A DNA stretch of 64,000 nt from Leifsonia sp. 71-9 (GTDB taxonomy: Bacteria > Actinomycetota > Actinomycetes > Actinomycetales > Microbacteriaceae). The notes beneath the pieces were generated by a model. It did no database searches and was not told the DNA's origin. It was given only the letters and a program-made list of their open reading frames with translations. The DNA lies in contig NZ_MKVJ01000017.1 of NCBI RefSeq assembly GCF_001898805.1, positions 228,066 to 292,065 of the forward strand, in the 5' to 3' direction. The position numbers and the translations under genes were made by a program. Below are positions 24,364 through 47,292 of this stretch, one piece after another; the stretch's first letter is position 1; each line of letters opens with the position of its first letter.

Positions 24364-24481
24364 GACGCCTGCCTCCCAAGATCGAACGCGTCTCAATGCA
24401 TTCGCATCTTCTCATCATCCGCCGACAGGGCCATCCGTGCCAGCACGGGAGAGGCGGGAGATCGCGGCGCCGGGACAGATT

Positions 24482-24515
24482 GAGGGCCGGCCGCAGAGGC
24501 TAGCGGCCGGCCCTC
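24482..24515. terminator. Strong hairpin, terminator-like
   Basis: A perfect 13-bp stem, GAGGGCCGGCCGC (24482-24494) with GCGGCCGGCCCTC (24503-24515), and an 8-nt loop. There is no T-run. It lies upstream of marR and 340 bp beyond the small ORF on the same strand, so it may insulate marR from minus-strand transcription of the accessory region. Confidence 0.5.
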
Positions 24516-24660
24516 TCCCTTGCACCAAGAGTGTCCTGCAATCACATTCCGCGATGGCTGCCACAGCAAACAACCATTGCTCTTGAACTATATAACGAAG
24601 AGGTAACGGGATCTAGTTATCAAGTCGTTATTTTTGCTGCGAGTTCGCTATGGGTGTGTG

Positions 24661-24745
24661 TCGATTCTCGAGTGACGTGGCCAGTTCCCACTTGGCTTGT
24701 CAAAGTTCTCACCACGTTGGCCACGTTCTCGTTGTGGTGGCAACG
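24661..24745. repeat. Palindrome-rich repeat, copy A
   Basis: Begins TCGATTCTCGAGT (24661-24673) and ends GGTGGCAACG (24736-24745), with CTTGTCAAAGTTCTCAC between. The same ordered blocks occur at 27148-27215. This copy also has an internal inverted repeat ACGTGGCCA (24675-24683) / TGGCCACGT (24718-24726). The two copies bracket the sigma-factor/I36 cassette in direct orientation. Confidence 0.7.
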
Positions 24746-24815
24746 GTGCGCCTCATCAGACTCCTGCCCCTCTCGAAGAACGACTCGATCGGAGTGGCCG
24801 CGGTCCCGATCATGT

Positions 24816-24860
24816 CAGGTCAGGTCAGGTCAGGTCAGGTCAGGTCAGGTCAGGTCAGGT
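24816..24860. repeat. Nine tandem copies of CAGGT
   Basis: A perfect pentanucleotide tract of 45 bp. On the minus strand it reads ACCTG and starts exactly at the stop codon of a 32-codon small ORF (the TGA at 24857-24855 is made by the repeat). Five-base units shift frame with each change in copy number, but no long frame crosses the tract, so any effect would be on RNA or small-ORF termination. Confidence 0.95.
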
Positions 24861-24953
24861 TGGGTTGGCCGGGAGAGCCTTGACGAGGAGCGCTGTCATG
24901 TCGATGGGCTGCGTGGGTGGGAGTTCGATGGCGGCGGGGTCGATCGTGCTCAT
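24855..24953 (-). CDS. Candidate 32-residue small protein
   Basis: ATG 24953 is preceded at eight bases by a strong AAAGGAGA site (24968-24961), among the best in this window. The product, starting MSTIDPAAIELPPTQPIDMT and ending LVKALPANPT, is Pro/Ala/Thr-rich, without cysteine, signal peptide or membrane segment. It follows the sigma factor and membrane-protein genes on the same strand after 148 bp. I do not recognise it. It could be a leader, a modified-peptide precursor or a small regulatory protein; chance is possible for so short a frame but the ribosome binding site argues for translation. Confidence 0.5.
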   Translation of the reverse strand: MSTIDPAAIELPPTQPIDMTALLVKALPANPT

Positions 24954-25101
24954 GGGCGGGTCTCCTTTCGGGGTGGATGTCACACTTGTGTGCAGCCGGT
25001 CCCGGTTCTGATTGCCTCGGGTCGGTAGGTGCCCGCCGCTGCCTCTCCCCAGGCGCGAAGGCGGCGGGCACCGCCTCTAGCCGCACGGATGTTCTACTTG
25101 T

Positions 25102-25608
25102 TCATTCGTGCGGGCGTGTCAGGCCGAGTTGCGAGCACAGCTCGTTCGCGGCCAGCTCGGAGGGGAAGACGGCCAGGCGTCCGTCGGGCAGCTGGCAGGT
25201 CTCCAGGTTGGGGACAGGGAAGTCCTGGTCGGCGGTGGAGCCGCCTGGTGAGAAGGTGCCGATGCGCCAGGTCGCCGCGCACATATCTTCGGCCAAGCTG
25301 ATGCGTTGCTGAAGGGGGGTAGGGGTCTTCGCGCTCTGATCCCCGGGCAGGTATGCGGAGGTGGCGTGGCGGGCGCCGAGATCGGTGCTGGCGTAGCAGT
25401 CGGCGACATAGTTGATCTGGCCCTGCGGCGCCTGGGCGATCGCGACGGCGCCGGCCGTGGTGCCCAATGCCAGGCTCCCAGCGATGCCAAGGGCGATCAG
25501 GCGGTGCTTGCGGGTGCGGCGGCGGTCATCGTCGCCAATCGTGTCGAGGATACGGTGCTTGATCTGGTCGAAGCGCTCGTCGTTGGGTAGCAGGTCGTGG
25601 TGGGTCAT
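25102..25608 (-). CDS. Membrane-anchored protein, putative anti-sigma factor
   Basis: A 168-residue protein: a charged cytoplasmic N-terminus (residues 1-36, HHDLLPNDERFDQIKHRILD), one membrane helix (about 38-60), and an extracytoplasmic domain with four cysteines (in VADCYAS, EDMCAATW, ETCQLPD and NELCSQL) that could form two disulfides. Its ATG overlaps the sigma gene's stop (25605-25608). Position and topology match ECF anti-sigma factors, but no zinc-binding HxxxCxxC motif is present, so the role is inferred from context. The outer cysteine domain may sense an envelope signal. Confidence 0.6.
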   Translation of the reverse strand: MTHHDLLPNDERFDQIKHRILDTIGDDDRRRTRKHRLIALGIAGSLALGTTAGAVAIAQAPQGQINYVADCYASTDLGARHATSAYLPGDQSAKTPTPLQQRISLAEDMCAATWRIGTFSPGGSTADQDFPVPNLETCQLPDGRLAVFPSELAANELCSQLGLTRPHE

Positions 25609-26213
25609 GGTGTCCCCCTGAGCGTGTGGAGTTCGTTGCGGAGGCGGGCGCGCAGCCGGGAGAGCCGGTTGCGGACAGCGCCGGGGGTGATGCCGGCCTG
25701 TGCGGCGGCGTCCTCGTAGCTGTGGTCGCCGCGGATACAGAGTTCGAACACGGTCCGGTCTGGCTCCGGAAGGGCGGAGGCCGCTGCCTCGACGTAGGCG
25801 AGCAGCTGGTCTCTCTCGACGAGCTCGTCCGGGCCGGGTTTCGAATCTGGCGTCGCTTCATCGACCGCGGCACTGGCGCGTCGTTTCCCTGCGGCCAGCA
25901 GGGAGCGGCGCCGGTTGGCGATCAGGTTGCGGCTGGTGACGAGTAGCCAGGGCAGGAGCGAGTCTCCCGCGATCGTGATCGTGGACCGTTTGCGCCACAG
26001 GGTGACGAACGCGTCCTGGCTGATCTCCTCGATGTCCTCTCGACCCTCGAGGCGGGCGGCTGTGTATGCGTAGACGACGCGGCTGTGCCGGTCGTAGAGC
26101 GTCGCGAGAGCGCCGCGGCGACCCTCGACGAGGGCGCGCAGCAAGTCGCGGTCCGACTGTTCGGATCGCGATAGCACCCCCGTCTCGGGACTCGTCTCGG
26201 TCTGGTCTCTCAT
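25605..26213 (-). CDS. ECF-type RNA polymerase sigma factor
   Basis: A 202-residue sigma-70 family factor. Region 2 spans about residues 22-95 (LYDRHSRVVYAYTAARLEGR, then EEISQDAFVTLWRKR and LLPWLLVTSRNLIANRRR), and region 4 about 140-195 (LPEPDRTVFELCIRGDHSYE, then AAQAGITPGAVRNRLSRLRAR). ATG 26213 gives the normal ECF length; a longer frame to 26573 would run back over the divergent secreted-protein gene. The first target is probably its own promoter or that of the divergent I36-type gene starting at 26349, 135 bp away. Confidence 0.92.
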   Translation of the reverse strand: MRDQTETSPETGVLSRSEQSDRDLLRALVEGRRGALATLYDRHSRVVYAYTAARLEGREDIEEISQDAFVTLWRKRSTITIAGDSLLPWLLVTSRNLIANRRRSLLAAGKRRASAAVDEATPDSKPGPDELVERDQLLAYVEAAASALPEPDRTVFELCIRGDHSYEDAAAQAGITPGAVRNRLSRLRARLRNELHTLRGTP

Positions 26214-26348
26214 ACCTAGGAAATGTGCCTCCCCGCCGAATCCTCTCAACGAGATCGCGTATTCGGCTCTTGCGGCTCTGGCGATGCGCCGACAGACTGA
26301 CCCTGCCTGACATCGGGCCGGGTGTATGTACTTCTGGGGAGAAGTCAA
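26214..26348. promoter_or_regulatory. Divergent promoter region, sigma factor / I36-type protein
   Basis: A 135-bp gap between the ECF sigma gene (minus) and the secreted-protein gene (plus). A good ribosome binding site GGGGAGAAG lies at 26336-26344 for the plus gene. I cannot identify -35/-10 elements with confidence, which would be consistent with recognition by an ECF sigma factor rather than the housekeeping one. Confidence 0.4.
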
Positions 26349-26926
26349 ATGGCAATCAAAACCTCTACTCGCGCGCGCCGTTTTCTGGCATCGGCACTCG
26401 GCGTCGCCGCCCTCTCGATCGGCTTCGTGTCGGTCGGCAGCGCCGCAAACGCAACCACCGCTGACGCCGCGGCCGCACCCGTCCAATCGTGTTCGTACGA
26501 CCTCGGCACGAAATCCCTGGTGTGCGTTGACGCCGGGCAGGACCTGAACGCGGCCGTCCTCGAGCAGGCTCATCTCCAGGTCGTCGCACCCAGCGGCGCC
26601 CGAGGAGCCACCGCGGCCACCGCTCTGGCTCCTGCCGGGGTGCAGGCCACGTTCGTGCAGAGCCAGCTCTACGACGACGCCAACTACGGCGGGTCGTTCT
26701 TCCAGATCACCAATTCCGCCGCCTGCAACGGCAGCACCACCTGGTACTACGGCCCCTCGGCAACGTGGGCTGGTCGGGTCGGGTCAGCTCCTTCAAGAGC
26801 TTCTCCAACTGCACCACGAAGGTGTGGCAGGGAACCAACTACACCGGCGCCGCATACGGTTACGCCGTCAACGCCGCCAACCTCGGCGCAATGAACGACC
26901 AGGCCAACTCCGTGACCATGAAGTAA
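26349..26926 (+). pseudogene. Secreted peptidase inhibitor I36 / beta-gamma-crystallin type protein, frameshifted
   Basis: ATG 26349 opens a secreted protein: signal peptide residues 8-36 (RARRFLAS ... SAANA), then VQSQLYDDANYGGSFFQITN, the crystallin/I36 start. The frame is intact to TTWYYG at 26753, then switches: the continuing homologous part (LGNVGWSGRVSSFKSF, NCTTKVWQGTNYTGA, ending NDQANSVTMK and TAA at 26924-26926) lies one frame over. One extra C in the CCCC run at 26753-26756 would restore a single protein of about 192 residues. Cysteines Cys and Trp patterns fit small Streptomyces metalloproteinase-inhibitor-like folds. It is either a recent pseudogene, a programmed slip or a homopolymer sequencing error. 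Confidence 0.8.
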
Positions 26927-27026
26927 CCCGATCGGCTGCGAGGTCGCGCGCCACATCGCGGCCTCGCAGCTGGCAACGGGCAAGAGCACCCGTTCCGCTC
27001 GATCTCGACGAGGGTGAAGAAATAGG

Positions 27027-27143
27027 CTTCGCGGAGCGGCCGACTTATCTGAGACGCCCGGACCGGCGGTTACACCGTCGGTCCGGACAAATCCCTGGTC
27101 AGGTCGGCGTCATTGGCCACTCCGCCTGAGAATCGACAGGTGC
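27027..27143. repeat. 117-bp structured direct repeat, copy 1
   Basis: Nearly identical to 28837-28953 (differences: one G inserted after GCGGAGCGG, one T lost near the end, one G/C change). The core folds on itself: outer arms GCGGAGCGGCC (27031-27041) and GGCCACTCCGC (27116-27126), inner arms GACGCC and GGCGTC, and an apical stem GGACCGGCGGT / ACCGTCGGTCC with a 3-nt loop. It has the form of a miniature inverted-repeat element or a structured terminator. It carries no coding capacity. Confidence 0.85.
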
Positions 27144-27147
27144 TCTA

Positions 27148-27215
27148 TCGATTCTCGAGTAATCCGGCTTTTTCGAACTTGACTTGTCAAGTTCTCACTC
27201 GTTGCGGTGGCAACG
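27148..27215. repeat. Palindrome-rich repeat, copy B
   Basis: Shares ordered blocks with 24661-24745: TCGATTCTCGAGT, CTTGTCAAGTTCTCAC and GGTGGCAACG. This copy contains a perfect palindrome GAACTTGAC-TT-GTCAAGTTC (27175-27194) and CGTTGC-GGTG-GCAACG (27200-27215). TCGATTCTC also pairs with GAGAATCGA at 27128-27136, in the tail of the neighbouring 117-bp repeat. Confidence 0.7.
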
Positions 27216-27652
27216 CTGCCCGAGGCTATGGTTTTGCTTCAGGAGTGAGCTGCAGTTTGACGGTAGATCCGTCCGATTGGCACGGGTTAGCTCGGGCGGT
27301 GCTGCTAAATCGGCAACTTTGTACGGGCTGGTCCGCAGCCGCACCGAAGAACGCGAGAGGATCGCATTTCGAGTGCTCCGTGAGACGTGGGCGCCTGGCG
27401 CCCCCGACTGCTGCTATTTCTGTTTCGTGCCAGATCGTCTTCACTCGAAGCGACTGGGAGTTGTATACGGTGCGCTTGCTCGATCCGACGACTGAGCGAA
27501 TCCCCCTACTTCCCATCAGGGTGCTTGATTCATCATGTCGACAGCGCGCAGAAGCCGCGGTTTCAACCGAATGGCTGTCAGCCTGTGGTGACGCTTCTGA
27601 TGCGCGGCGGGCCGTGCGCCAGATGCGGCGGGCCAGCCGCGAAAGACGTCCC

Positions 27653-28507
27653 TCACCAGGCCGTGAGAAGTGGATCGTCGGGGTCCGATATGACGAATGA
27701 TTCAATGGTTTCTATGGCGTGCAGTTCTCGGATCAATTCTGCGGCGCCTCCGACAAGCGTGAAGTTCGCGTCGATCTCCGTCCCGATAGCCCAGGTGTGA
27801 TCGGTCGACCAGTACAGCTGCGGCATCAGGCCGTCCCGGGAAGCGGTCCATCCCAGACCGGATTGTGCGGGCCAGTCCGCACTACTCAGTGCAGTCATCG
27901 TCGTTGAGCCCAACACGTAGTCACGCCAACCAGTGGTGAACAGATGGCCGGTTAGCAGTGACGAGGGGCCACTGGAGGCCAGGCCTAGCTCGGGATCTCG
28001 GGTCACGCTCCGCGCACGATCGAGCTGAATGAAGCGCTCATCCAGTGCCACCCTGCTGGTGGGATGCGCGGCATCGGTGCCCGCCAGCTGTGCGAAGCCG
28101 CGACCGGCCCAGACTGCGACCACCGCTTGCTCGTCCGGCGTTGCGAACCCGCGGATGGCTTGCGTCATCACGCTCAGAATCCACGGCTCGAGCAGGCCGA
28201 GGGTGGGTTCCCCCACCCTCCACTCGCCCAGCCGGCCAGGAAGCCCGGCATCACTGAAAAGCGAGTCCCAGTCTGAGGACGCCGCAACGCTGCCAACGCC
28301 GGCCTGACGCGCTGCGTGGGCCCATGACCACCACGCGCTCTCGTATTCATCTGGGCTCTGACTGGGGCGCAGCGCCGGGATCGGGTGGAGAACTTTCAGA
28401 TACGATTCGAAACCGAGGGGGATGCCACCGACAGACATACCCCTCGTCTGAACCCACCTGGCAAGGCTGGGGTCTTGAAACCATTCCATAATTTCTAGCC
28501 AATCCAC
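27653..28507 (-). CDS. Uncharacterised protein of an actinobacterial family
   Basis: A 284-residue soluble protein with no signal peptide or membrane helix. It is Trp-rich; motifs include GIPLGFESYLKVLHPI near residue 28, LEPWILSVMTQ, a segment VVAVWAGRGF, and near the C-terminus YWSTDHTWAIGTEIDANFTL followed by VGG. From memory, actinobacterial hypothetical proteins share the pattern PLGF..Y..(V/I)LHP ... W..D..W...TEID.....VGG; no function is known for them. Start is GTG 28507 or ATG 28489; neither has a strong ribosome binding site. It is cargo of the segment bounded by the 117-bp repeats. Confidence 0.65.
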   Translation of the reverse strand: MDWLEIMEWFQDPSLARWVQTRGMSVGGIPLGFESYLKVLHPIPALRPSQSPDEYESAWWSWAHAARQAGVGSVAASSDWDSLFSDAGLPGRLGEWRVGEPTLGLLEPWILSVMTQAIRGFATPDEQAVVAVWAGRGFAQLAGTDAAHPTSRVALDERFIQLDRARSVTRDPELGLASSGPSSLLTGHLFTTGWRDYVLGSTTMTALSSADWPAQSGLGWTASRDGLMPQLYWSTDHTWAIGTEIDANFTLVGGAAELIRELHAIETIESFVISDPDDPLLTAW

Positions 28508-28543
28508 TCTGAATCATCACGTGGCGACTGGGATCTCACGCCG

Positions 28544-28825
28544 TCATTTAGTGAGGTTGGCCCACTTCATCATGGTCTTCGACGCGACGTTGGACATCTT
28601 CCCGTTCACGGTAAACCAGAACGTCGCTGTCGCTGACCAGTAACCGATGCCGATCCCACCGCCAGAGTTGCCCTTGGAAGGCGTGATGAAGTCGACACCT
28701 CGTGAGCTGTTGACGGTGACCCATTTGGCCTGCGATTCAGCCACCCGCGTCGTGAAACGTGTGTTGGTGACTCGGTCGTTGGCCGCCGGGGCGAATGCCA
28801 AAGCCCCGCTGACACGAACGAGCAC
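28544..28825 (-). CDS. Small hypothetical protein, probably 5'-truncated secreted protein
   Basis: A 93-residue frame from GTG 28825, with GGAGG seven bases upstream, provided by sequence next to the structured repeat. It starts LVRVSGALAFAPAANDRV, which looks like the end of a signal peptide whose basic start is missing; an in-frame stop lies at 28858 inside the repeat. The remainder is Ser/Thr/Gly-rich with YWSATATFWFTVNGKMS and no cysteine. The repeat therefore probably replaced the original 5' end. It is 36 bp upstream of the 284-residue gene on the same strand. Family unknown. Confidence 0.5.
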   Translation of the reverse strand: MLVRVSGALAFAPAANDRVTNTRFTTRVAESQAKWVTVNSSRGVDFITPSKGNSGGGIGIGYWSATATFWFTVNGKMSNVASKTMMKWANLTK

Positions 28826-28836
28826 TTGTACGCCTC

Positions 28837-28953
28837 CTTCGCGGAGCGGGCCGACTTATCTGAGACGCCCGGACCGGCGGTTACACCGTCGGTCCGGACA
28901 AATCCCTGGTCAGGTCGGCGTCATTGGCCACTCCGCCGAGAATCGACACGTGC
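28837..28953. repeat. 117-bp structured direct repeat, copy 2
   Basis: Second copy of the element at 27027-27143, same orientation. It abuts the 3' end of the GH54 gene (stop at 28966), so transcripts from that gene run straight into its long hairpin; acting as the GH54 terminator is plausible. Recombination between the two copies would delete 1,810 bp including both cargo genes. Confidence 0.85.
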
Positions 28954-28965
28954 GTGACGGGACTT

Positions 28966-30879
28966 TCAGTTGAGCTGGAACGTCTGCGCCGGTGCCCCGT
29001 TGCAGACCCAGATGCGCAGCTGCGTGCCGTCGGCGGTCGCCCCGTTCGGGGCGTCGAGGCAGTAGTTCGACGCGGGGTTGAGGAGTGCCCCGTTGGCCTG
29101 CGGCACCCAGTGCTGACCGCCGACGCCGTTGCAGTCGTGCAGCTGGATGCCCGCGCCCATCGTCGTCGAGTTGTCGATGACGTCGAGGCAGCGGCCGATG
29201 GTCCGGACGCTCTGGTCGGCGGGGGAGTACGTCCACTGCTGGTCGCGCGCCTCCGCGTTGCCGCCGGGCGCCCCCGTGACGATGTTCTGGCAGGTCCAGA
29301 GCTGCACGCGCTGGTTGTTGACGTTCAGGTCGTTGCCTGCGACGTCGACGCACGTCGAGGGCGCACCGGAGACGGGGTGGAGGATCGGCGTCGTGACCGT
29401 GAACTTCTGGGCGGCCGCGCCGTTGCAGGTCCAGATCCGCAGCGGCGTCCCGTTGGCGGTGGCGCCGTTCGGGGCGTCGAGGCAGAGCCCCGAGGCCGGG
29501 TTCTTGATCGAGCCGTCGGCCTGCGGAAGCCACTGCTGGCCGCCGACGCCGTTGCAGTCGTAGAGCTCGACCCCGGTGCCGAGCGTCGTGACGTTGCCGT
29601 TCACGTCGAGGCAGCGGCCGAGCGTGCTGAGCGTTCCTTCGCCGATGATGCTGCCGGCCCAGTGCTGATCGGCGGCGAGGGCCTTGCAGTCCCACAGCTG
29701 CACGACCGCGAGGTTGCCCCCGGTGTCGTCGCCCGCCACGTCGACGCATTTGCCGCCGGGGCCGACGATCTGACGGCCGGGGCCGCCACCGGTGCTCACG
29801 CCGTCGTAGTGCTGCGCGACGATGTTCGCCTGCACCGCGTTCTCGGCCACGTTGGTGGCGTAGCCGCTGGTCATCACGCCCTCGAAGAAGGACTGGGTGC
29901 CGCGGTTGGAGTTGTCGCCGCCCGCACCCAGGCCGATCGAGCCCTCGAGCTTCATCGGCTTCCACGTGCTCCCGAACCGGTCCACGCCGTCCGGGAGGGC
30001 GCCGTCGTACCAGGTGGAGAGGGCGCCGGACTGCGCGTTGCCGCCCTTCAGGGCGAAGGTGTTCACACCGTTGTTCTTCAGCACGGCGGTGACGAACTTC
30101 GAGGCGTTGCCCTGATTCGGCGTCCACACGGCGGTCTTGCCCTGGAACACGCCTTCCTCGAGGTCCGCCTGCACCCAGGGGCCGTGTCCGGTCGCGCCCT
30201 TGGCGCCCAGGGTGGAGAGGTTCAGCGTGTCCATGTGTCCGGCGCCCGTGTCGACGGTGTCGGTCTCGACGTTGCCGAAGTCGGAGCAGCAGGCGCTGTT
30301 GACGTTCGTCCCGCTGGCGACCTCGTACATCGATTCGGGGTTGGCGCCGCGCGCCGTTCCGATGGTCACGGTGCTGGAGCGCCGGTAGGCGACGCCCGGA
30401 GGCAGGTAGAGGCCGTACGCCTTGCTCCCGCCGACGGTGATCGGCAGCGCTGCCGCGTCGGCCGGGGCGTTGGCCGCACCCTGCTCGCCCGCGGGGGCGG
30501 GGGTCAGGTCGTTGTGGTTCGCCGACTGGTCGTAGACGATCGGGATGACGCAGCTCGTCCCGGCGCAGAAGGCGTCCTGCTGCGCGGCGTCGGCGGACCC
30601 GCCCGCGGAGAGCAGCCCGATGTTCCTGGTCGCGCCGTCCGAGGCGCGCTTCACCTGGTAAAGCGGTCCGTTGTACGCGGCGTAGAGCGCGCGGGCCGGG
30701 CTGTACGCGGCCACGCACGGGGTGCCGGCCGCGGCGTAGATGTCGCAGGGGCCGTCCGTCGCGGCCTGCGCCGGGCTCGCCGTGAGCAGCGGGCCGGTGA
30801 GCAGCGTGAGGGCGAGGGCGAGGATCCCGAGGGCGGCTGTGAGAGCCCGCCTGCGGGTGGGAGGCGAATCGGTGTGCAC
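28966..30879 (-). CDS. Secreted GH54 alpha-L-arabinofuranosidase with ricin-type lectin repeats
   Basis: A 637-residue exported enzyme. Signal peptide to about residue 39 (ASPAQA), then a GH54 catalytic domain (about 40-330) starting GPCDIYAAAGTPCVAAYSPA and continuing YNGPLYQVKRASDG, VYDQSANHNDL and SACCSDFGNVET with the vicinal cysteines typical of GH54. The C-terminal half has two ricin B-type domains with repeated RCLDV/CLDAPNG and QxW motifs (DQHW, GQQW, DQQW, GQHW). It should release L-arabinofuranose from arabinan or arabinoxylan outside the cell. GTG 30879 follows AAGGAAGG. Two LacI-type operators precede it. Confidence 0.9.
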   Translation of the reverse strand: MHTDSPPTRRRALTAALGILALALTLLTGPLLTASPAQAATDGPCDIYAAAGTPCVAAYSPARALYAAYNGPLYQVKRASDGATRNIGLLSAGGSADAAQQDAFCAGTSCVIPIVYDQSANHNDLTPAPAGEQGAANAPADAAALPITVGGSKAYGLYLPPGVAYRRSSTVTIGTARGANPESMYEVASGTNVNSACCSDFGNVETDTVDTGAGHMDTLNLSTLGAKGATGHGPWVQADLEEGVFQGKTAVWTPNQGNASKFVTAVLKNNGVNTFALKGGNAQSGALSTWYDGALPDGVDRFGSTWKPMKLEGSIGLGAGGDNSNRGTQSFFEGVMTSGYATNVAENAVQANIVAQHYDGVSTGGGPGRQIVGPGGKCVDVAGDDTGGNLAVVQLWDCKALAADQHWAGSIIGEGTLSTLGRCLDVNGNVTTLGTGVELYDCNGVGGQQWLPQADGSIKNPASGLCLDAPNGATANGTPLRIWTCNGAAAQKFTVTTPILHPVSGAPSTCVDVAGNDLNVNNQRVQLWTCQNIVTGAPGGNAEARDQQWTYSPADQSVRTIGRCLDVIDNSTTMGAGIQLHDCNGVGGQHWVPQANGALLNPASNYCLDAPNGATADGTQLRIWVCNGAPAQTFQLN

Positions 30880-30919
30880 GGTGACCTTCCTTTCGAGCGT
30901 CGTTGCTACGGTCCGGAAG

Positions 30920-30983
30920 TGCTCAATCGTTAAAACATGCGGCCGAGAAGATCGTTCGGCACCGTTGCTTTATCGTTTAAACA
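30920..30983. promoter_or_regulatory. Two LacI-type operators upstream of the GH54 gene
   Basis: TGCTCAATCGTTAAAACA (30920-30937) and TGCTTTATCGTTTAAACA (30966-30983), centres 46 bp apart. They match TGCTTCATCGTTAAAGCA at 38462-38479 in front of the transporter operon. The central CG and flanking TG...CA are typical for LacI-family sites. Confidence 0.85.
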
Positions 30984-31002
30984 CTCCCCACCTCGGGAGT
31001 GT
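30981..31002 (-). terminator. Hairpin after the LacI regulator gene
   Basis: ACACTCCC (30981-30988) pairs with GGGAGTGT (30995-31002), 6-nt loop; on the minus strand it is followed by TTT. It lies 46 bp after the regulator stop and would end the transporter operon before the GH54 promoter. It partly overlaps the right-hand operator. Confidence 0.6.
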
Positions 31003-31047
31003 AGAGGATCGCGCCGACCGGCGGAAGAGTGGGCCCGGCCCGGCCGG

Positions 31048-32127
31048 TCAGACGGGGAGGACCGCCGCCTCGTCGGCCGTGGAGTCCATCGGCTGGCAGC
31101 CGCAGGACTGGCGCAGCACCAGCTCCACCTCGACGACGTGCCGCCTCCAGCCGCCCTCGTCGCCGGCCATGATCTCGAACAGCCGGGCCGTCGCGAGGCG
31201 CGCGAGCCGCTGGGCGGGGACCCGCACGGTGGTGAGGCTCGGCGTGGTGACGCGTGCGAGCCCGAAGTCGTCGAAGCCCGCGATGGAGAGAGCGCCCGGC
31301 ACGTCGACGCCCGCGGCTCGGAGCAGCGTGAGCGCCCCGAACGCCATGTCGTCGTTGGCCGCCACCAGACCGTCGATGCCGGAAATGCGCGGCCCGAGCT
31401 CGCGGATGGCGGCGGCGCCCGACTCCTCGCTCAGATCGCCCTCGACGATCAGGGCGTCGGCCTCCAGACCGTGCGCGCGCACCGCGTCGAGGAAGCCGTC
31501 GCGGCGGTCGACGCCGGTCTGGTGGTCGAGCGTGCCGGAGATGTGGAGCAGGCGCGTGCGGCCGTGCACGGCGATGAGGTGCTCGGTGACGGCGCGGGAG
31601 GCGGCACGGTCGTCGACGCCGACGGTGACGGCGCCCGGGAGGTACGGGAAGCTCCCGATCATCACGACGGGGAGCCCGCTGTCGATCAGCCGCTCGACGG
31701 TCGGATCCTCGATCGCCGCGCTGGTCAGGATGGCGCCGTCCGCGCTGTGCGAGCGCATCACGCGCTCGTAGGCCGCGAGGCCGTGGTCGTTGTCCGGGTT
31801 GGTCGAGACGAGCAGCTGCACGTCGTGCTCGTTCGCGACCGACGACGTGCCCTCGAGCACGTGCATGAAGTAGCTGTGGCCGAACACGTGCGTCGCCGTC
31901 GTCGGCACGATCAGCGCGATCGTGCCGGCGTGCTGGTTGCGCAGCGCCCGGGCCGCGGAGCTCGGCACGTAGCCCAGCTCGCGCGCGGCCTCCTGGATGG
32001 TCTTGCGGGTGTCGACGCCGATGCGCGGGTTGTCCGCGAGCGCCATCGAGACGGCCGACGCGGTCACGCCGACCTTGTCGGCGATGTCTCTGAGGGTGAC
32101 GCGACGCACCCGCCCCCGCTCCACCAT
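31048..32127 (-). CDS. LacI family transcriptional repressor
   Basis: A 359-residue regulator from ATG 32127, which has GGAGGAG eight bases upstream; a start at 32181 overlapping the GH2 stop as ATGA is also possible and would add 18 residues. HTH at the N-terminus (TLRDIADKVGVTASAVSMAL, then hinge AARELGYVPSSAARALRNQ), followed by a periplasmic-binding-protein-like sugar domain ending VRQSCGC-like (LRQSCGCQP). Being the last gene of the operon and close to GH54, it most likely binds the three shared operators and responds to an arabinose-containing sugar. Confidence 0.92.
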   Translation of the reverse strand: MVERGRVRRVTLRDIADKVGVTASAVSMALADNPRIGVDTRKTIQEAARELGYVPSSAARALRNQHAGTIALIVPTTATHVFGHSYFMHVLEGTSSVANEHDVQLLVSTNPDNDHGLAAYERVMRSHSADGAILTSAAIEDPTVERLIDSGLPVVMIGSFPYLPGAVTVGVDDRAASRAVTEHLIAVHGRTRLLHISGTLDHQTGVDRRDGFLDAVRAHGLEADALIVEGDLSEESGAAAIRELGPRISGIDGLVAANDDMAFGALTLLRAAGVDVPGALSIAGFDDFGLARVTTPSLTTVRVPAQRLARLATARLFEIMAGDEGGWRRHVVEVELVLRQSCGCQPMDSTADEAAVLPV

Positions 32128-32177
32128 TCCTCGACTCCTCCCGTGCCCGGGCGATCCCGAGTGTTCCTTACCGTAGC

Positions 32178-34022
32178 TCATGCCTCAGGCGGTGCCGGCG
32201 TCCTCTCCCCGGTCACGATCGCGCGGATGACCGGCACCGGGAGCTTGGGCCTGCGGTCCTCCGTCAGCAGGCCGTTCGCCTCCTGCATCGTGTCGGTCAG
32301 CTGCGTGTAGCAGGAGCCCGCCAGCACCGTGCTCGCGCGCAGCGCGTCGTAGAGCGCGCGCAGCGTCTCCTCGAACTGCTCGGCCGACCCGGCCGTGGAG
32401 TATCCCCAGCTGTCGCCCGGGGCGCCGGAGCGGTCGAGCAGGAACTCGACGCCGCCGAACTCCGTCAGCATGAGCGGCGCCCCGGGGTCGAAGGCGTCGG
32501 TCAGGACCATCGCGCGCCCGGCCGGACCGGTCCCGGCGCGCAGGGCGGCCGCGGCCGCCTCGTCCCGGTACCGCGCCCGCACGGCGACGGGATCGTGGTC
32601 GTAGTCGTGCACGCTGAAGACGTCGGACTCGAGGTGCTCCCAGCCGTCGTTCGAGATCACCGGGCGGGACGGGTCCACCGCCCGCGTCAGCTGCACGAGC
32701 GCGCGGGCGAACGCGCGCTGCGCGGGGTCGGCGGCGACGTCCTGGATGCCCCAGCTCTCGTTCATCGGCACCCACGTGACGATGGAGGGGTGCGAGCGGT
32801 CGCGGTCGAGCGCCTCCAGCCACTCCCGGCTCAGACGCTCGACGGCCGTTGCGCTGAACCGGTAGGTCGCCGGAGCCTCGCCCCACAGCAGCAGGCCGAG
32901 CCGGTCGGCCCAGTACAGGAAGCGCGGGTCCTCGATCTTCTGGTGCACACGCGCCGCGTCGAAGCCGAGGGCGAGGATGAGCTCGACCTCCTCGCGGAGT
33001 GCCGCCGCGCCGGGGGCGGCGAGGTGCGACTGCGGCCAGTACCCCTGGCTCAGCACCGAGCGGAGCGTGCGGGGGAGGCCGTTGAGCACGAAGCGCCCGT
33101 CCCGCACCCCGGTCGTGCGCAGGCCGAGGTATCCGGCGACCGTGTCGACCGTCCCGCTCGCGTCCTCGACCGTGACCGTCGCGTCGACGAGCCGGGGCGA
33201 CTCCGGCGACCAGAGGAGGCCCTCCCGGTCCTGCCCGTTGAGCAGCCGGGGGATCGTGACCGTGCCCGTGTGCCGCTGGGTGGTCACGACGGCGGCGGCC
33301 TCGGCGATCGGCTCCTCGCCGTCGAACAGCTCGACCCGGCAGCGCGTCCCTGGCGCCGGCGGCCGGTTGAGCCGCACCTCGTAGGTGACGGAGCCGCGCG
33401 CGATGTCGGTCGTGAAGTGGAGCTGCTCGACGAACGTCTCGGGCGTCGCCTCCAGCCACACCGGCTGCCAGATGCCGGTCGTGCGCCGGTACCAGATGAC
33501 GTGCGCGTCCTCCTGCCAGTCCTGCTTGCCGCGCGGCTGCTCGACGTCGGCCGCGCGGTCCTCCGCCCGCAGCGCGACGTGCTGGGTGCGTCCGGGCAGG
33601 AGCGCGTCCGTGACGTCGAAGGAGAAGGGGGTGTGGCCTCCCTCGTGCTCGCCGACGAACCGCCCGTTGACCCACACGCGGGCGCGGTAGTCGACCGCAC
33701 CGAAGCGGAGGTGGAGGCGCGGCCGCTCTGCGCCGTGTCCCGCCTGCAGCACGGCGTCCCAGGGGACGTCGCGCTGGTACCAGACGACGTCGTGGAAGCG
33801 GTCGTCGGCGATGCCGGACGCGGCGCTCTCGGGCGGGAACGGCACCACGATGGTGCGCTCCAGCCGGTGCTCCGGCTCGAACCACGCCTCGCGCTCGCCC
33901 ACCTCGCCGTCGTCGTGCGCGAAGCGCCACGGTCCGTCGAGGGAGGTCCAGTGCTCGCGGACCAGCTGCGGGCGCGGTCGCGCCTCCTCCAGCCGGCTCG
34001 CACGGAGCGGTGCGCCGCTCAC
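32178..34022 (-). CDS. GH2 family glycosidase
   Basis: A 614-residue cytoplasmic enzyme: sugar-binding jelly roll (about 20-195), immunoglobulin-like domain (200-300) and TIM barrel (305-600). The acid/base is Glu422 (VPMNESWGI) and the nucleophile Glu521 (LTEFGG), both in GH2 positions. Relatives are beta-galactosidases, beta-glucuronidases and newer alpha-L-arabinofuranosidases or arabinopyranosidases. GTG 34022 overlaps the upstream GH1-like stop as GTGA. In this locus it likely trims imported arabino- or galacto-oligosaccharides. Confidence 0.88.
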   Translation of the reverse strand: MSGAPLRASRLEEARPRPQLVREHWTSLDGPWRFAHDDGEVGEREAWFEPEHRLERTIVVPFPPESAASGIADDRFHDVVWYQRDVPWDAVLQAGHGAERPRLHLRFGAVDYRARVWVNGRFVGEHEGGHTPFSFDVTDALLPGRTQHVALRAEDRAADVEQPRGKQDWQEDAHVIWYRRTTGIWQPVWLEATPETFVEQLHFTTDIARGSVTYEVRLNRPPAPGTRCRVELFDGEEPIAEAAAVVTTQRHTGTVTIPRLLNGQDREGLLWSPESPRLVDATVTVEDASGTVDTVAGYLGLRTTGVRDGRFVLNGLPRTLRSVLSQGYWPQSHLAAPGAAALREEVELILALGFDAARVHQKIEDPRFLYWADRLGLLLWGEAPATYRFSATAVERLSREWLEALDRDRSHPSIVTWVPMNESWGIQDVAADPAQRAFARALVQLTRAVDPSRPVISNDGWEHLESDVFSVHDYDHDPVAVRARYRDEAAAAALRAGTGPAGRAMVLTDAFDPGAPLMLTEFGGVEFLLDRSGAPGDSWGYSTAGSAEQFEETLRALYDALRASTVLAGSCYTQLTDTMQEANGLLTEDRRPKLPVPVIRAIVTGERTPAPPEA

Positions 34023-35353
34023 TGCGCGCTCTCCGCGGGGGCGGTGCGCGCCGCGGCCCGCGGGAAGACCGCGGCGGCGACCGTGGGCGTGCGGCGCAGC
34101 TCGCCGCCGGCCTCCTCGGACAGCTCGACGAGACCCATCCGGCGGAAGAACGGCGTGAGGCCGCGCCCGGTCTCGGCGAACGTCTCGCTCGTGGCGTCGC
34201 TCGACGTGGCGGGGTCGAGCACGAACTCCTCGACGTTGCGGCCTCCGGAGGCGTACGACCAGTCGACGAAGTCGAGCAGCGGCCACCAGGTCAGACCGCG
34301 CACGTCCATCCCCTCCTGGTGGAGGTCGCGGACCGTGGCCGTGGACGCCTCCAGCCAGTCGCGGCGCACCTCCGGCGTCCCCTCGATGCTGGTCTCGGTG
34401 ACGAGCATCGGCAGGCCGTACCGCGTGTGCCAGTCCGTCAGCACCGCGCGGAGCCCGTCGCTCCACCGATTGGCGGTGACCTGGCGCACCGTCCCCTCGG
34501 CCAGCTCCAGGACCCGCGGGGTGAGGTCCGGGTAGTAGTTGACGCCGAGCAGGTCGATCCGTGCCCCGCCGGCGCGCAGCTCGGCGAGGTGCTCGGGCCG
34601 GGCCCCCTGCTCCCGCAGCCACGGGTCGAGCGGGTGGAGGTCGTCCACCCGTCCCAGCACGAGATCGGTGGGGAGGGTCGCCAGCGAGCGGAGCAACGCG
34701 ACCTCCTCGGCCAGCACCGTCTCGGTGGTCTCGTAGATGGCGGAGGCCTCGACGTGCACGATCACCGCGTCCGGATTGGCCAGGCGGATGGCGGCGACGG
34801 CCCGCTGCACGCCGCGCGCGATGGCGACGGTCACCGTGGTCCAGCCGTCCCAGCCGGTGAGCGCGGGAGGCCACACCCCGCGCAGGCCGCAGAACGACGC
34901 CGTGGTGAGCGGCTCGTTGAGCGGGGTGATGTGGTCGACGACGCCGCGGTACCGCTCGGCGAAGGCGCCGGCGAACTCGGCCAGCGCCTCCGGGAACCCG
35001 GGGTCCGCGAACGAGCCGTCCAGCCAGGTGGGGGTGCCGTAGTGGACGAGGTCGGCGATCACCGTGAGCCCCTCCTCCCGCACCGCGTACTCGATGCGCT
35101 CGTCCAGCGCGCTCCAGTCGAACGTGCCGGGAGCCGTGTGCACGAGCGGCCAGCTGACCCCGTAGCGGAGGCCGGTGGCGCCCAGCGCGGCTGCGGTCCC
35201 GATGTCCGAGCGCCAGTTCGCGTCGTGCGCGGTCAGCTCGAACTCGTTGAGCGGCCCCATCGACGATCCGGGCGCCGGGTAGACGCAGGTGTCCTCGATC
35301 CCGATCAGCCAGTGCAGGCGGTCGTGCGGGAAGCCGTCGATGTGTGTCGTCAC
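34019..35353 (-). CDS. GH1-like family glycoside hydrolase
   Basis: A 444-residue TIM-barrel glycosidase. The clan GH-A acid/base lies in TPLNEP (Glu147) and the nucleophile in VTETSIEG (Glu320); LLGVNYYPDL resembles the GH1 NYY segment. The sequence is divergent from classical beta-glucosidases and could belong to a related GH-A family. No signal peptide, so it acts on imported sugar. GTG 35353 overlaps the permease stop as GTGA, giving coupled translation. Confidence 0.8.
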   Translation of the reverse strand: MTTHIDGFPHDRLHWLIGIEDTCVYPAPGSSMGPLNEFELTAHDANWRSDIGTAAALGATGLRYGVSWPLVHTAPGTFDWSALDERIEYAVREEGLTVIADLVHYGTPTWLDGSFADPGFPEALAEFAGAFAERYRGVVDHITPLNEPLTTASFCGLRGVWPPALTGWDGWTTVTVAIARGVQRAVAAIRLANPDAVIVHVEASAIYETTETVLAEEVALLRSLATLPTDLVLGRVDDLHPLDPWLREQGARPEHLAELRAGGARIDLLGVNYYPDLTPRVLELAEGTVRQVTANRWSDGLRAVLTDWHTRYGLPMLVTETSIEGTPEVRRDWLEASTATVRDLHQEGMDVRGLTWWPLLDFVDWSYASGGRNVEEFVLDPATSSDATSETFAETGRGLTPFFRRMGLVELSEEAGGELRRTPTVAAAVFPRAAARTAPAESAQ

Positions 35354-36234
35354 TTGAGTCCTGTCGTTGCGACGCCCGCGACGAAGTACCGCTGGGCGAG
35401 GAAGAATGCGATCGCGATGGGCAGCAGCGAGATCACGGCGCCGGCCATCAGGACCGCGTGGTCGGTCACGTGCTGGCCGCCGAACAGCGCGAGGCCCGCC
35501 GGCAGCGTCCGCATCTCCGGGGTGCTCGTGACCACGAGCGGCCACAGCAGGTCGTTCCAGAGGGCGGTGAAGTTGAGCACCGCGACCGTGGCGATGGCCG
35601 GCTTGGCCAGCGGCAGGATGATCTGCCAGTAGATGCGGAAGTGGCCGGCTCCGTCGATCCGGGCGGCCTCGTCGAGCTCGCGCGGGATCGAGACGAAGAA
35701 CTGGCGGAAGAGGAAGATGCCGAACGCGCTGGTGGCGCGCGGGATGATCAGCCCCTGGTACGTGTTCAGCCAGTCCAGGTGGAAGAGCTCCACGAACACC
35801 GGGATCAGCGTCACCTGGAACGGCACCATCAGGGTCACGAGCACCAGCCAGAAGGCGATGGTGCGCCCGCGGAAGTCGATCCGGGCGAGCGCGTAGGCGC
35901 ACATGGAGTCGAACAGCAGGGTGAGCAGTGTCGTGACGCCGGCGAAGACGATGGTGTTGAACACGAGCAGCAGGAACGGGAGCTGCTCCCACACGCCCTG
36001 ATAGCCGTGCAGCGTCCACTCGGTCGGGAAGAGGCTCGCCGGGTTGCCGAACAGGTCGCGTTCGGTGCGGAACGAGGCGGACAGCATCCAGATGAACGGC
36101 ACGAGGGCGAAGACCAGCCCGACGCCGACGAAGACCCAGCGCGAGACGGTCCCGAGCGTCGAGGAGCCGGAACGGCGCCGGTCCCGGCGCGCGGACGTCC
36201 CAGCGGTCGGCCGGCGGAGCGTTTCAGTCGACAT
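35350..36234 (-). CDS. Carbohydrate ABC transporter permease, MalG type
   Basis: A 294-residue permease with six membrane helices and the EAA loop EAARIDGAGHFRIYWQIILP. It pairs with the MalF-type protein; the two genes overlap by 11 bp. Classified as CUT1 by size and motif. No ATPase gene is present in this operon, so a shared MsiK-like ATPase elsewhere must energise it, as is common in actinobacteria. Confidence 0.92.
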   Translation of the reverse strand: MSTETLRRPTAGTSARRDRRRSGSSTLGTVSRWVFVGVGLVFALVPFIWMLSASFRTERDLFGNPASLFPTEWTLHGYQGVWEQLPFLLLVFNTIVFAGVTTLLTLLFDSMCAYALARIDFRGRTIAFWLVLVTLMVPFQVTLIPVFVELFHLDWLNTYQGLIIPRATSAFGIFLFRQFFVSIPRELDEAARIDGAGHFRIYWQIILPLAKPAIATVAVLNFTALWNDLLWPLVVTSTPEMRTLPAGLALFGGQHVTDHAVLMAGAVISLLPIAIAFFLAQRYFVAGVATTGLK

Positions 36235-37165
36235 CGTTGTACCTGAAGATTCTGAGTTGGAGGGCGGAGATGATCACGATCACCAGGAACAGCGCCCACG
36301 AGATCGCGGCGGCGTAGCCGGTCTGGAAGTTCACGAAGCCCTCGCGGAACAGCATCGTGACGAGCGTGTCCGTCGAGAACAGCGGGCCGCCTCCCGTCAT
36401 CACGTAGACGAGGTCGAACAGCTGGAACGACTGGATGGTCATGATGAGCGTGCCGAAAAGCATCGTCGGGCGCAGGGCGGGCAGCGTGATGTAGCGCAGC
36501 AGCGCCCACGACCCGGCGCCGTCGAGACGGGCCGCCTCGTACCGCTCGGCGGGGACGCCTTTGAGGCCGGCGATCAGGATGATCATCACGAACCCGGCGT
36601 TCTTCCAGATGTTGACGAAGATGATCGTCGGCAACGCCAGCTGGGGCGACTGCAGGAACCCGACGTTCCCGAGGCCGAGGGCGGAGGTGATCGCGCCGAC
36701 GAGACCGAGATCCGGGTCGAGCAGGAACCGCCAGACCAGGCCGATGGAGGTCAGCGAGACCACGGTCGGGAAGAAGAAGGCGGAGCGGATGATCCGGCTG
36801 CCGAGGTTGTCGCGGGCCAGGGCCAGCGCCAGGGCGAGCCCGAGGACGACGATCCCGGCCACCGAGATCACCGTGATCTCGACGGTGTGGAGCAGCGCGC
36901 CCCAGAACTTCGGATCCTGCGTGAGCGCGATGTAGTTGCCGAGACCGACCCAGGGCTGGTCGTCGGCGCCGATCGTCCACTCGTGCAGGCTGTACCAGAA
37001 AGAGACCAGGATCGGCCAGAGGACGAACACGCCCAGGATGAGGAAGCTCGGGGCGAGGAACAGCAGGGCGGGGGAGAGGCGGAACCGCCGGCGGCGCCGC
37101 CGCTCCCCCCGGATCCCGGTCCGGGAGCCGTCCTGCGGCTCCCGGACCTTGGTCAGAACGGTCAT
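36224..37165 (-). CDS. Carbohydrate ABC transporter permease, MalF type
   Basis: A 313-residue permease with a basic N-terminus (RGERRRRRRFRLS) and six membrane helices. The EAA loop reads YEAARLDGAGSWALLRYITL. ATG 37165 overlaps the binding-protein stop as ATGA. It forms the pore of the CUT1 importer with the MalG-type permease. Confidence 0.92.
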   Translation of the reverse strand: MTVLTKVREPQDGSRTGIRGERRRRRRFRLSPALLFLAPSFLILGVFVLWPILVSFWYSLHEWTIGADDQPWVGLGNYIALTQDPKFWGALLHTVEITVISVAGIVVLGLALALALARDNLGSRIIRSAFFFPTVVSLTSIGLVWRFLLDPDLGLVGAITSALGLGNVGFLQSPQLALPTIIFVNIWKNAGFVMIILIAGLKGVPAERYEAARLDGAGSWALLRYITLPALRPTMLFGTLIMTIQSFQLFDLVYVMTGGGPLFSTDTLVTMLFREGFVNFQTGYAAAISWALFLVIVIISALQLRIFRYNDVD

Positions 37166-38418
37166 TTGGCGGAGCAGCCCGTCAGATCGTCGATCGTCTT
37201 CGTCGCGCTCTGCGTGCCCTCGGCCAGCGGCGTGCCTCGCGTGAGCGTCCCGATCATCGGCACGTAGCCGTCGGAGTCGACCTTCGTCGCGTTCGGCACC
37301 TGCGGCAGGTACAGGCGCGAGCCGGGAACCTGGGCCGAGAACACCGACACCACCGGGTCGGCCTTGAGGTCGGCGTCGTCGGCCAGGTCGGTCCGCAGCG
37401 ACGGGAAGCCCGTCGAGAGCGAGAACTTCTTCTGCGCCGTCTTGCCCGTCCAGTACGCGAGGAACTCCTGCGCCTCCTGCGGGTGCTTGCTCTTGGCCGA
37501 GATGGCGAGCGGGGCGGTGGAGCCGAGCGTCACCGGCTTGCCCGCGGAGTCGAGCGGAACGGAGACGATGCCGAGGTCGATGCCGGCCTTCTTGTAGCCG
37601 GGCGCCGCCCAGGGCCCGTTGATCTCCATCGCGGCCTTGCCGGCCGAGAAGAGCGCGTCGGCCTCGGCGCCGGTGAGGCCCACCGGGGAGATCTTGTCGT
37701 TCACGACCAGGTCGACCCACGGCTTCAGGCTGCTCTGGCCCTTCTGGCTGTCGAGCACGCTGCAGTTCTTGCTGTCGACGATGTCGCCGCCTTCGAGCCA
37801 CTGCAGCACCGGCCACATCTGGATGGTGTTGTTGTCGGCGAGCACGAGGCCGTAGGTGCCGCCGGAGGTCAGCTTCTTCGCCGCCTCCTTGAGCTCGGCG
37901 ACGGTGGTGGGCGGCGTGACGCCCGCCGCGGTGAAGAGGGCCTTGTTGTAGTAGAGGCTCAGCGTGGCGTAGTTCGCCGGCACGGCGTAGAGCTTCTTGT
38001 CGTACGTGAACTCGTCGACGAGGGCCGGAGCGAAGTCGTCCACGTTGATCTTGGTGTCGCCCGAGCCGGTCTGCGTGATCGGGAGGACCGACTTGGTCTT
38101 GACGTACTGGGCGATGACGTTCGGGTCGGAGGCCGGGGCCGCGATGTCGGGGCCCTGTCCGGTCATCCAGGCGGAGGGCAGCTTCTGCTGGATCGTGTCC
38201 CACGGCTCGGCCGACATGGTGACCTTGATCCGCTTCTGCGACGCGTTGAAGTCCTTCACGATCTGCTCGTAGCCGGGGGCGTCGCCGCCGGTGAAGCCGG
38301 TCCAGACGGACAGTTCGACGGGGCCGGAGGAGGTGCCGCCTCCGCCGGAGCAGCCGGTGGCGAGCAGTCCGACCGCCGCAGCGACGGCCACGACGGCGAG
38401 CTGTTTCTTGTAGTGCAT
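37162..38418 (-). CDS. Sugar ABC transporter substrate-binding lipoprotein
   Basis: A 418-residue SBP family 1 lipoprotein. The signal peptide ends at lipobox ATGC (Cys25), followed by SGGGGTSSG. Mature motifs include ELSVWTGFTGGDAPGYEQIV, MTGQGPDIAAP, AVPANYATLSLYYNKALF and GKAAMEINGPWA, all usual for oligosaccharide-binding proteins. ATG 38418 follows AAGGGAGAG; longer frames to 38724 cross the operator and promoter. It is the first gene of the six-gene operon ending with lacI. Confidence 0.92.
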   Translation of the reverse strand: MHYKKQLAVVAVAAAVGLLATGCSGGGGTSSGPVELSVWTGFTGGDAPGYEQIVKDFNASQKRIKVTMSAEPWDTIQQKLPSAWMTGQGPDIAAPASDPNVIAQYVKTKSVLPITQTGSGDTKINVDDFAPALVDEFTYDKKLYAVPANYATLSLYYNKALFTAAGVTPPTTVAELKEAAKKLTSGGTYGLVLADNNTIQMWPVLQWLEGGDIVDSKNCSVLDSQKGQSSLKPWVDLVVNDKISPVGLTGAEADALFSAGKAAMEINGPWAAPGYKKAGIDLGIVSVPLDSAGKPVTLGSTAPLAISAKSKHPQEAQEFLAYWTGKTAQKKFSLSTGFPSLRTDLADDADLKADPVVSVFSAQVPGSRLYLPQVPNATKVDSDGYVPMIGTLTRGTPLAEGTQSATKTIDDLTGCSAK

Positions 38419-38461
38419 GGAGACTCTCCCTTGAGCGATGGGTAACGATGCTCGGATTGGG

Positions 38462-38510
38462 TGCTTCATCGTTAAAGCAGATCGTAGACGACGAACCTCG
38501 TCGAGCGCAA
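38462..38510 (-). promoter_or_regulatory. Promoter and LacI-type operator of the sugar transporter operon
   Basis: On the minus strand TTGCGC (38510-38505), an 18-bp spacer and TACGAT (38486-38481) form a good promoter. Operator TGCTTCATCGTTAAAGCA (38462-38479) follows immediately, covering the expected start site, so a bound repressor would block initiation. Confidence 0.8.
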
Positions 38511-38560
38511 TCCATGTCCCGCGACGTCGGAGCGGCCGTCTGGACAGATTGCTCGCAATC

Positions 38561-41278: not shown

Positions 41279-41288
41279 CCGCAGCCGC

Positions 41289-41345
41289 CGAGCACAGGAA
41301 AAGTGCTGCTGTTTCGAGCGATTCGGAGCACTTTTCCTGTGCTCG
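41289..41345. repeat. Intergenic hairpin repeat, copy 1
   Basis: GAGCACAGGAAAAGTGCT (41290-41307) pairs perfectly with AGCACTTTTCCTGTGCTC (41327-41344), extended by one C-G pair; loop about 19 nt. It lies between the convergent ABC permease and winged-helix regulator genes, where it could serve as a bidirectional terminator. The same arms recur at 46228-46286 and 47236-47292. Confidence 0.9.
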
Positions 41346-41371
41346 CGGGCTTCGGGCCGCGGGCGCGGGGC

Positions 41372-46187: not shown

Positions 46188-46227
46188 CCGCCGCGCCCGC
46201 CCGCCGTCCGCCCGCAGCCCGCAGCCC

Positions 46228-46286
46228 GCGAGCACAGGAAAAGTGCTCGGATTCGGCCGCGATCAGAGCACTTTTCCTGTGCTCGC
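46228..46286. repeat. Intergenic hairpin repeat, copy 2
   Basis: Arms of 21-22 bp: GCGAGCACAGGAAAAGTGCT starting at 46228 and its complement ending at 46286, loop 17 nt. It is between the convergent proC and DUF559-type genes, and its right arm supplies the last codons of the latter (ASTGKVL and stop at 46263). Confidence 0.9.
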
Positions 46287-47186: not shown

Positions 47187-47235
47187 ATCGTCCCCGAACC
47201 ACCCAGACCCCGCCGGCGCTCTCCACAGTTGCCGC

Positions 47236-47292
47236 CGAGCACAGGAAAAGTGCTCTCGGATGTGCTGAAAACGAGCACTTTTACTGTGCTCG
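47236..47292. repeat. Intergenic hairpin repeat, copy 3
   Basis: CGAGCACAGGAAAAGTGCTC (47236-47255) pairs with GAGCACTTTTACTGTGCTCG (47273-47292) with one mismatch, loop 17 nt. It lies between the start of the DUF559-type gene and the end of the KtrA-like gene, both on the minus strand, so it is 3' of ktrA's upstream neighbour only and cannot be a convergent terminator. Confidence 0.88.

Follow-up and report, generated by a model that had tools for sequence, protein, structure and literature searches.

Two hairpin repeats as probable right ends of tandem non-autonomous cassettes behind a predicted RNA gene in Leifsonia sp. 71-9

Introduction

CIMEs are cis-mobilizable elements that have kept attL and attR and lost their integration and transfer genes, as described in the available part of PMC5704250. 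For the SEs, the available part of PMC10214605 gives imperfect terminal inverted repeats of 13-19 bp and a joint spacer of 6 bp. Among the ssrA islands of Dehalococcoides, 15 of 31 are without an integration module according to the sections available of PMC3146451. Mobile DNA in the form of cassettes stacked one behind another is known.

Here we analysed a window of 64,000 nucleotides from Leifsonia sp. 71-9 (contig NZ_MKVJ01000017.1, positions 228,066 to 292,065), in which a sequence-only reading had pointed to a pair of hairpin-forming direct repeats. Our analysis suggests that the two repeats probably form the right attachment arms in a pair of small non-autonomous integrative cassettes, which stand in tandem at a fixed site behind an RNA gene. 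If this is right, the odd repeats mark a precise insertion site beside a conserved RNA gene, they provide, together with a second repeat, testable attachment sequences for a recombinase still to be identified, and small cargo modules accumulate at the site without an integrase of their own.

Results

A hairpin repeat in two copies

The hairpin element, hereafter H, was delimited by repetition and folding on the plus strand at 27027-27143 (H1, right end of unit A) and 28837-28953 (H2, right end of unit B), and the 117-base direct repeat with three differences proposed in the sequence-only reading was thus confirmed with exact coordinates. The copies are 97.5% identical over 118 columns and 1810 bp apart from start to start. 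H2 has an additional G within its left outer arm and is short of a T just past the right outer arm, and the fifth-last base carries a G/C substitution. Because of these three differences and a location far from the ends of a 650-kb contig, an assembly artefact, which the same reading had considered, is unlikely.

The multi-stem fold proposed for each copy was also borne out. In H1 the outer arms GCGGAGCGGCC (27031-27041) and GGCCACTCCGC (27115-27125) pair with one mismatch, and both copies contain the inner pairing GACGCC/GGCGTC and a long apical stem. H1 folded better than 200 of 200 dinucleotide shuffles on both strands, as RNA and as DNA (z -2.9 to -3.9), and H2 did the same as RNA on both strands (z -3.4 and -3.5). 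H is GC-rich and located at gene ends, and it possibly also acts as a duplicated terminator as a side function. The two genes expected between the copies are present on the minus strand with 284 and 93 codons, and occupy only 27653-28825. The end of H1 is a junction, at which a second, weaker repeat (S2) begins.

In the own genome (4.48 Mb, 24 contigs), H was found in exactly two places, H1 and H2, and 27 other genomes of the genus gave no match at E up to 0.001. The search of Microbacteriaceae that had been suggested was carried out on 398 genomes of the family, with the best two candidates per genome scored, and yielded no full copy beyond the own genome; 17 others contained pieces between 19 and 41 bp long (E 1.8e-4 to 0.009), which fall on differing parts of H and look like chance matches. 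The order sample, 396 genomes scored in the same manner, gave, outside the own genome, only two pieces (29 and 32 bp). No match to H was obtained in the plasmid and phage collections, none to its exact apical-stem pattern in GTDB contigs, and none to the left-arm pattern and further H patterns in viral contigs. Neither H nor the RNA gene described below matched a covariance model of Rfam 15 at gathering score, and the four matches below threshold (E up to 5) did not fall on H. As a candidate structured RNA, H shows no covariation, its two copies in the collections searched being nearly identical. H is not a repeat family in any collection searched. A miniature inverted-repeat element (MITE), which had been offered as one possible identity, is ruled out by copy number: with two copies in the own genome and none in 27 congeners there is no multicopy family. 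Other copies or compensatory base changes, on which that identity had been made to depend, were not found as regards a MITE.

Anatomy of the insert

The insert spans 24653-28953, and from left to right the layout is a conserved block, S1, cargo A, H1, S2, cargo B, H2 and the old flank; the insert is absent in two relatives, and the repeat ends meet at one core. Unit A (about 2.5 kb, 24659-27138) and unit B (about 1.8 kb, 27146-28948, bounded by S2 and H2) are both absent at this site in the relatives G002 and G001.

S1 (24653-24733), which begins with GGTGTGTGTCGATTCTCGAG, and S2 (27139-27219) form the left ends of units A and B on the plus strand, and were recognised by their likeness to each other. 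The aligned parts, 24653-24719 and 27139-27204, are 76% identical over 68 columns. When scored against random pairs, a procedure that was also used for the outer ends and the flank and in each case concerns stretches picked after being seen, S1/S2 reached a local score of 33 versus a highest value of 25 among 19885 random window pairs. A search of the own genome with S2 at E up to 0.5 returned S1 as the sole other match (E 1.1e-4). The start of S1 coincides with the end of the block, and the start of S2 coincides with the end of H1.

A palindrome resembling an attP core, GAGAATCGACA-GGTGCTC-TATCGATTCTC, lies across the junction of H1 and S2 (27128-27156). Its inverted arms of 11 bp (one mismatch) enclose a spacer of 7 bp, and it was the sole match within two mismatches across the 28 genus genomes. 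The left junction is GAGTTCGCTAT GGGTGTG TGTCGATTCTC and the right junction is GAGAATCGACA CGTGCGT GACGGGACTTTC, and the three spacers are unlike one another. On the plus strand, the arm GAGTTCGCTAT at 24641-24651 and the spacer GGGTGTG at 24652-24658 would make up the left half of a putative attachment site. The outer ends of the insert are the inverted repeats GTGTCGATTCTCG / CGAGAATCGACAC, perfect over 13 bp and imperfect to 26 bp, with a score of 17 against a highest value of 15 among 19877 random pairs.

Past H2, the old right flank CGTGCGTGACGGGACTTTCAGT (GTGCGTGACGGGACTTTCAGT; 28949-28970, plus strand) extends into the stop codon of an arabinofuranosidase gene (28966). It was recognised by its likeness to the post-block sequence of G001, to which it is identical at 19 of 21 positions. 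The local score of 17 was equalled by 2 of 20000 random pairs in a control that may include homologous pairs; the other 26 congeners scored 3 to 9, and the match is limited to G001. Near the left end of unit A, at 24810-24860, TCAGG is repeated ten times in tandem.

A conserved block and predicted RNA gene at the left edge

The conserved block corresponds to 24474-24652 of the window and is present in all 28 genus genomes, as a single copy except for weak extra pieces in G010 and G014. It adjoins the same MarR gene across these genomes, with about 0.7 kb between the two in G007. The block is 99.4% identical to that of G002, versus 88-89% for the surrounding genes.

Covarying stems and family-wide conservation lead us to take 24478-24635 (plus strand) as a structured RNA gene, which would form the left edge of the insertion site. 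Of 398 family genomes, 300 contain it, and these represent 65 of 85 genera. Its predicted parts are a GC-rich hairpin, further stems and a terminator-like stem followed by TTTTT at 24631-24635, close to which the conservation ends. For 48 aligned copies (46 distinct sequences), a fraction of those found, 39 pairs were predicted, and 13 of them have changes on both sides; the mean in shuffles was 4.8, and none of 500 shuffles reached 13. Sliding the pairing partners by 1-3 columns left only 1 to 4 such pairs. The covariation is concentrated in helices 1 and 3, and no pair in helices 2, 4 and 5, the terminator-like stem included, changed on both sides among the 46 sequences. The G-U/G-C variation fits transcription of the plus strand. 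What appears to be a family-wide structured RNA, with no match in Rfam 15, stands at the edge of the insertion site.

A variable site in the genus

The DNA past the block differs among the 28 genus genomes, and this variability starts directly after the end of the block. We sorted the genomes by the distance from the block to a downstream core, the PadR gene at 38.5 kb of the window, with G000 taken from the window coordinates. The core lies less than 100 bp from the block in six genomes (G001, G007, G011, G018, G023 and G025), 0.4 to 6.8 kb past it in 13, and 13-14 kb past it in two (G000 and G015); for the remaining seven (G002, G003, G010, G014, G017, G024 and G027), it was not reached in the fetched stretch or is rearranged.

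Sites without the element, which the sequence-only reading had recommended looking for, were found in two relatives, as the whole insert is missing at the same site. G002 has a relative of the arabinofuranosidase gene next to H2 (protein 94% identical) at most 20 bp past the block, whereas in the window the block lies more than 4 kb upstream; window 24653-28965 is missing at this site in G002, and the window is 4.3 kb longer. In G001 the block stands directly before the PadR region, so that about 24657-38538 is missing there and the window is 13.9 kb longer. Of the mobility that had been suggested for the repeats, one part stands: comparison with G001 and G002 shows that each forms the right end of an inserted unit. 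The part that saw them as a miniature inverted-repeat element does not.

In G022 (L107), an insert of 318 bp lies past the RNA gene, with a 47-bp direct repeat on both sides that spans the block end, and it is possibly a second case at the same spot. When the block end was compared with the variable region of the same genome, a clear second copy was seen in G022 only (29 versus 15 in shuffles); the best places in G000 were S2 and the end of H2, at 15 and 13 versus 15 in shuffles. Since no such repeat is prominent outside G022, general use of the site by a single system becomes less likely. Hairpins are numerous in the 28 variable regions, and those listed are unlike H.

Several further palindromes were observed. 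A 60-bp hairpin lies inside the G022 insert (L107, block end and 310 bp further). Members of one family of long intergenic palindromes (CGAGCACAGGAAAAGTGCT...) stand at gene ends at 41284-41368, 46189-46324 and 47209-47319 of the window, and the ten congeners listed have palindromes, mostly of other sequence, at comparable intergenic positions.

Cargo genes and their relatives

Unit A carries an ECF-like sigma factor on the minus strand (25605-26210), with Pfam sigma-70 regions 2 and 4, and behind it a 168-aa ORF on the same strand (25102-25608). The plus-strand gene at 26349-26924, whose product we take to be a crystallin-like secreted protein, has a seemingly broken frame, possibly an assembly error. 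Unit B carries the 284-codon (27653-28507) and 93-codon (28544-28825) genes, both on the minus strand. Four of these five named genes do not point towards their H. Before the start of the 93-codon ORF, a GGAGG that reads like a Shine-Dalgarno ribosome-binding stretch overlaps the edge of H2; among 199 family genomes this ORF was found only as the own copy, and no relative was found on plasmids.

The 284-codon protein belongs to a family without a Pfam name and had no match in Pfam, NCBIfam or PADLOC. Its relatives occur in 28 of the 199 family genomes, the own one included, the others being 25-42% identical, and on six plasmids (two of Curtobacterium and four of Mycobacterium avium). Invariant positions were seen in an alignment of 11 members. 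A peptide-pattern search of GTDB contigs confirmed no relative, whereas the whole-genome search found them. Repeats around the relatives were inspected at 20 loci, L023 to L042, of which L023 is the own locus. Other direct repeats lie near the relatives at L032 to L034 and a short inverted repeat at L026, and the repeats listed for L030, L032, L033 and L036 are unlike H. Long palindromic hairpins in direct orientation stand on both sides of the relative at L036 (G106; 1333-1390 and 2402-2471), and a long palindromic hairpin stands on one side at L030 (G105; 1369-1436).

Searches for a recombinase

Pfam scans of selected cargo ORFs recognised no recombinase, integration, transfer or transposase gene, and a tyrosine-recombinase profile of 16 proteins found none among all window ORFs of at least 60 aa (best E 0.35), although short or divergent genes may escape such scans. 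The own genome contains six tyrosine-recombinase places, and the four listed are all on contigs other than that of the window. We then compared nine loci that contain or adjoin tyrosine recombinases (L144, L145, L160-L165 and L071), and no convincing match to H, S or attB was obtained at them; 6 of 45 comparisons scored more than 1 point above the highest of six shuffles, all of them gapped and scattered.

At L071 (G020:C1:4103366 and 4107997), about 4 kb separate a tyrosine recombinase from a relative of the 284-codon gene, whose matched stretch contains one stop. Adjacent tyrosine-recombinase pairs with frames of about 410-450 and 880-930 aa are present at L160 (10761-14490) and similarly in G007, G016 and G024, and resemble a GInt or Tn554-type layout. 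No convincing matching ends were found for the adjacent pairs elsewhere in the genus.

Discussion

The explanation we favour, and which we hold to be probable, is that H1 and H2 are the right attachment arms of two small non-autonomous cassettes that were integrated in tandem behind the RNA gene. Circular units would join to the site past the RNA gene through the core formed by H and S, with its 11-bp inverted arms and spacer of about 7 bp. The shape of this core suggests a site-specific recombinase that was supplied in trans and was most likely of the tyrosine type. Unit B may have been inserted first and unit A second, or both may have arrived as one composite. The hairpin beside the core might, as a guess, serve the recombinase as arm DNA or take on a folded form for strand-specific recombination, and it might additionally stop transcription.

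Integration of circular units through the core would account jointly for the coincident repeat ends, and the variability of the same spot in the genus and the presence of 284-codon relatives on plasmids also count in favour of this explanation. So do the absence of the insert in G002 and G001, the likeness of S1 and S2, the inverted outer ends, the G001-like flank past H2, the uniqueness of the junction palindrome among the 28 genus genomes, the G022 insert, and the 284-codon relative near a tyrosine recombinase in G020. Because no recombinase was recognised in the units, they fit CIMEs stacked by accretion. As the spacers differ between the three junctions, the enzyme would have to cope with spacer heterology, and one requiring identical overlaps is less likely; SE- and Tn554-type recombinases show such tolerance according to the available part of PMC10214605. 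Several points count against the two-cassette explanation. The scanned cargo ORFs gave no recombinase family and the window no tyrosine recombinase, the nine tyrosine-recombinase loci compared gave no convincing match, the spacers are not identical, and a clear second copy of the block end was seen only in G022. H was found in no second genome, and the divergence of 97.5% identity for H1/H2 versus 76% for S1/S2 is not predicted by a simple shared-end model without extra constraint or exchange.

That H1 and H2 are far more alike than S1 and S2 would be explained by homologous recombination, if H were a resident intergenic terminator-like hairpin and a foreign circle with the same hairpin had entered there and left cargo B between the copies. 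Intergenic palindromes are frequent at gene ends in this genus, and H with its GC-rich sequence and position would suit such a role. This account leaves unexplained why S1 beside the block resembles S2 beside H1, as well as the inverted junction arms and the G001-like flank past H2, and H is by eye unlike the local palindrome family. We give it a small chance of being right.

The outer ends bear on another alternative, namely two cargo-carrying non-autonomous DDE transposons that were inserted side by side and have terminal inverted repeats of about 12 bp (TGTCGATTCTCG), with H as a hairpin lying subterminally in the right end. In agreement with it, the insert as a whole is bounded by inverted repeats that are perfect over 13 bp, and its ends are of the type TGT...ACA, which is also the type found in Tn7-like elements. 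However, there is no target-site duplication, and the three junctions share GTG next to the ends but otherwise have different bases there; moreover, the insertion point is the variable spot of the genus, the scanned cargo ORFs contain no recognised transposase, and no further copy of H exists in the genome. Such transposons are unlikely to be the source of the repeats.

A bolder proposal is that the locus represents an undescribed cassette-capture system of this actinobacterial family, in which small cassettes with a folded-hairpin recombination site at one end would be captured in trans, one after another, at the 3' flank of the family-wide RNA gene, with an integron-like layout and a different site and enzyme. 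We regard this as quite unlikely.

An integron-like array proper, with H as a folded attC-type site and the region past the RNA gene as attI, would agree with the order of attI followed twice by cargo and H, with H being an imperfect palindrome whose length falls within the 57-141 bp of attC sites (available part of PMC3053210), and with H being far better conserved than the cassette starts. By the attC definition in the same available text, the core sites rule H out, as neither GTTRRRY nor RYYYAAC occurs on either strand of either copy with its flanks. In addition, the repeats point to a crossover some 13 bp beyond the hairpin, the cargo genes are mostly not directed at their H, and the cassette starts (S) are related too, so that an integron is very improbable. 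Equally improbable is a role of H as duplicated regulatory RNA or 5' leader for the 93/284-codon operon, with the remainder being coincidence, since H1 has no visible minus-strand gene to lead and H has no Rfam match, even though H2 on the minus strand stands directly before the 93-codon ORF, overlaps its Shine-Dalgarno-like stretch, and both strands of H fold better than shuffles.

Compared with known systems, the locus shares with integron cassettes (PMC3053210, available part) and CALINs an array of cargo plus palindromic site, and differs from them in the missing attC core sites and in a crossover outside the palindrome. The ssrA islands of Dehalococcoides are similar in that tandem units lie behind a single-copy RNA gene and many have no integration module, but the available part of PMC3146451 describes for them a 20-bp repeat of the 3' end of the RNA gene and a serine recombinase, unlike the situation here.

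The elements of SE, GInt and Tn554 type, as presented in the available part of PMC10214605, seem to resemble this insert in their imperfect end repeats of similar length, the short place-dependent spacer at the joint, the split attB and the target specificity. In contrast to them, the insert does not contain the conserved intA, intB and others, no pair of tyrosine recombinases of its own was found in the window, the spacer reads 7 bp here versus 6 bp, and the ends are hairpins, which that part of the paper does not mention for these elements.

CIMEs in tandem accretion, as far as the available part of PMC5704250 describes them, differ in several respects from the units here, which measure 1.8 and 2.5 kb and have a hairpin of about 100 bp at one end, and for which no parent integrative element is known; the site also lies behind the RNA gene and not within it. 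Nevertheless, the traits of CIMEs recur at this locus. The insert is missing from G001 and G002 at the same site, the att-like sequences at its left end, junction and right end are related and not identical, and no integration or transfer genes were recognised in the ORFs scanned inside it. As in CIMEs stacked by accretion, the units without an integrase of their own stand between related attachment sites, at one chromosomal site with a conserved gene at its edge.
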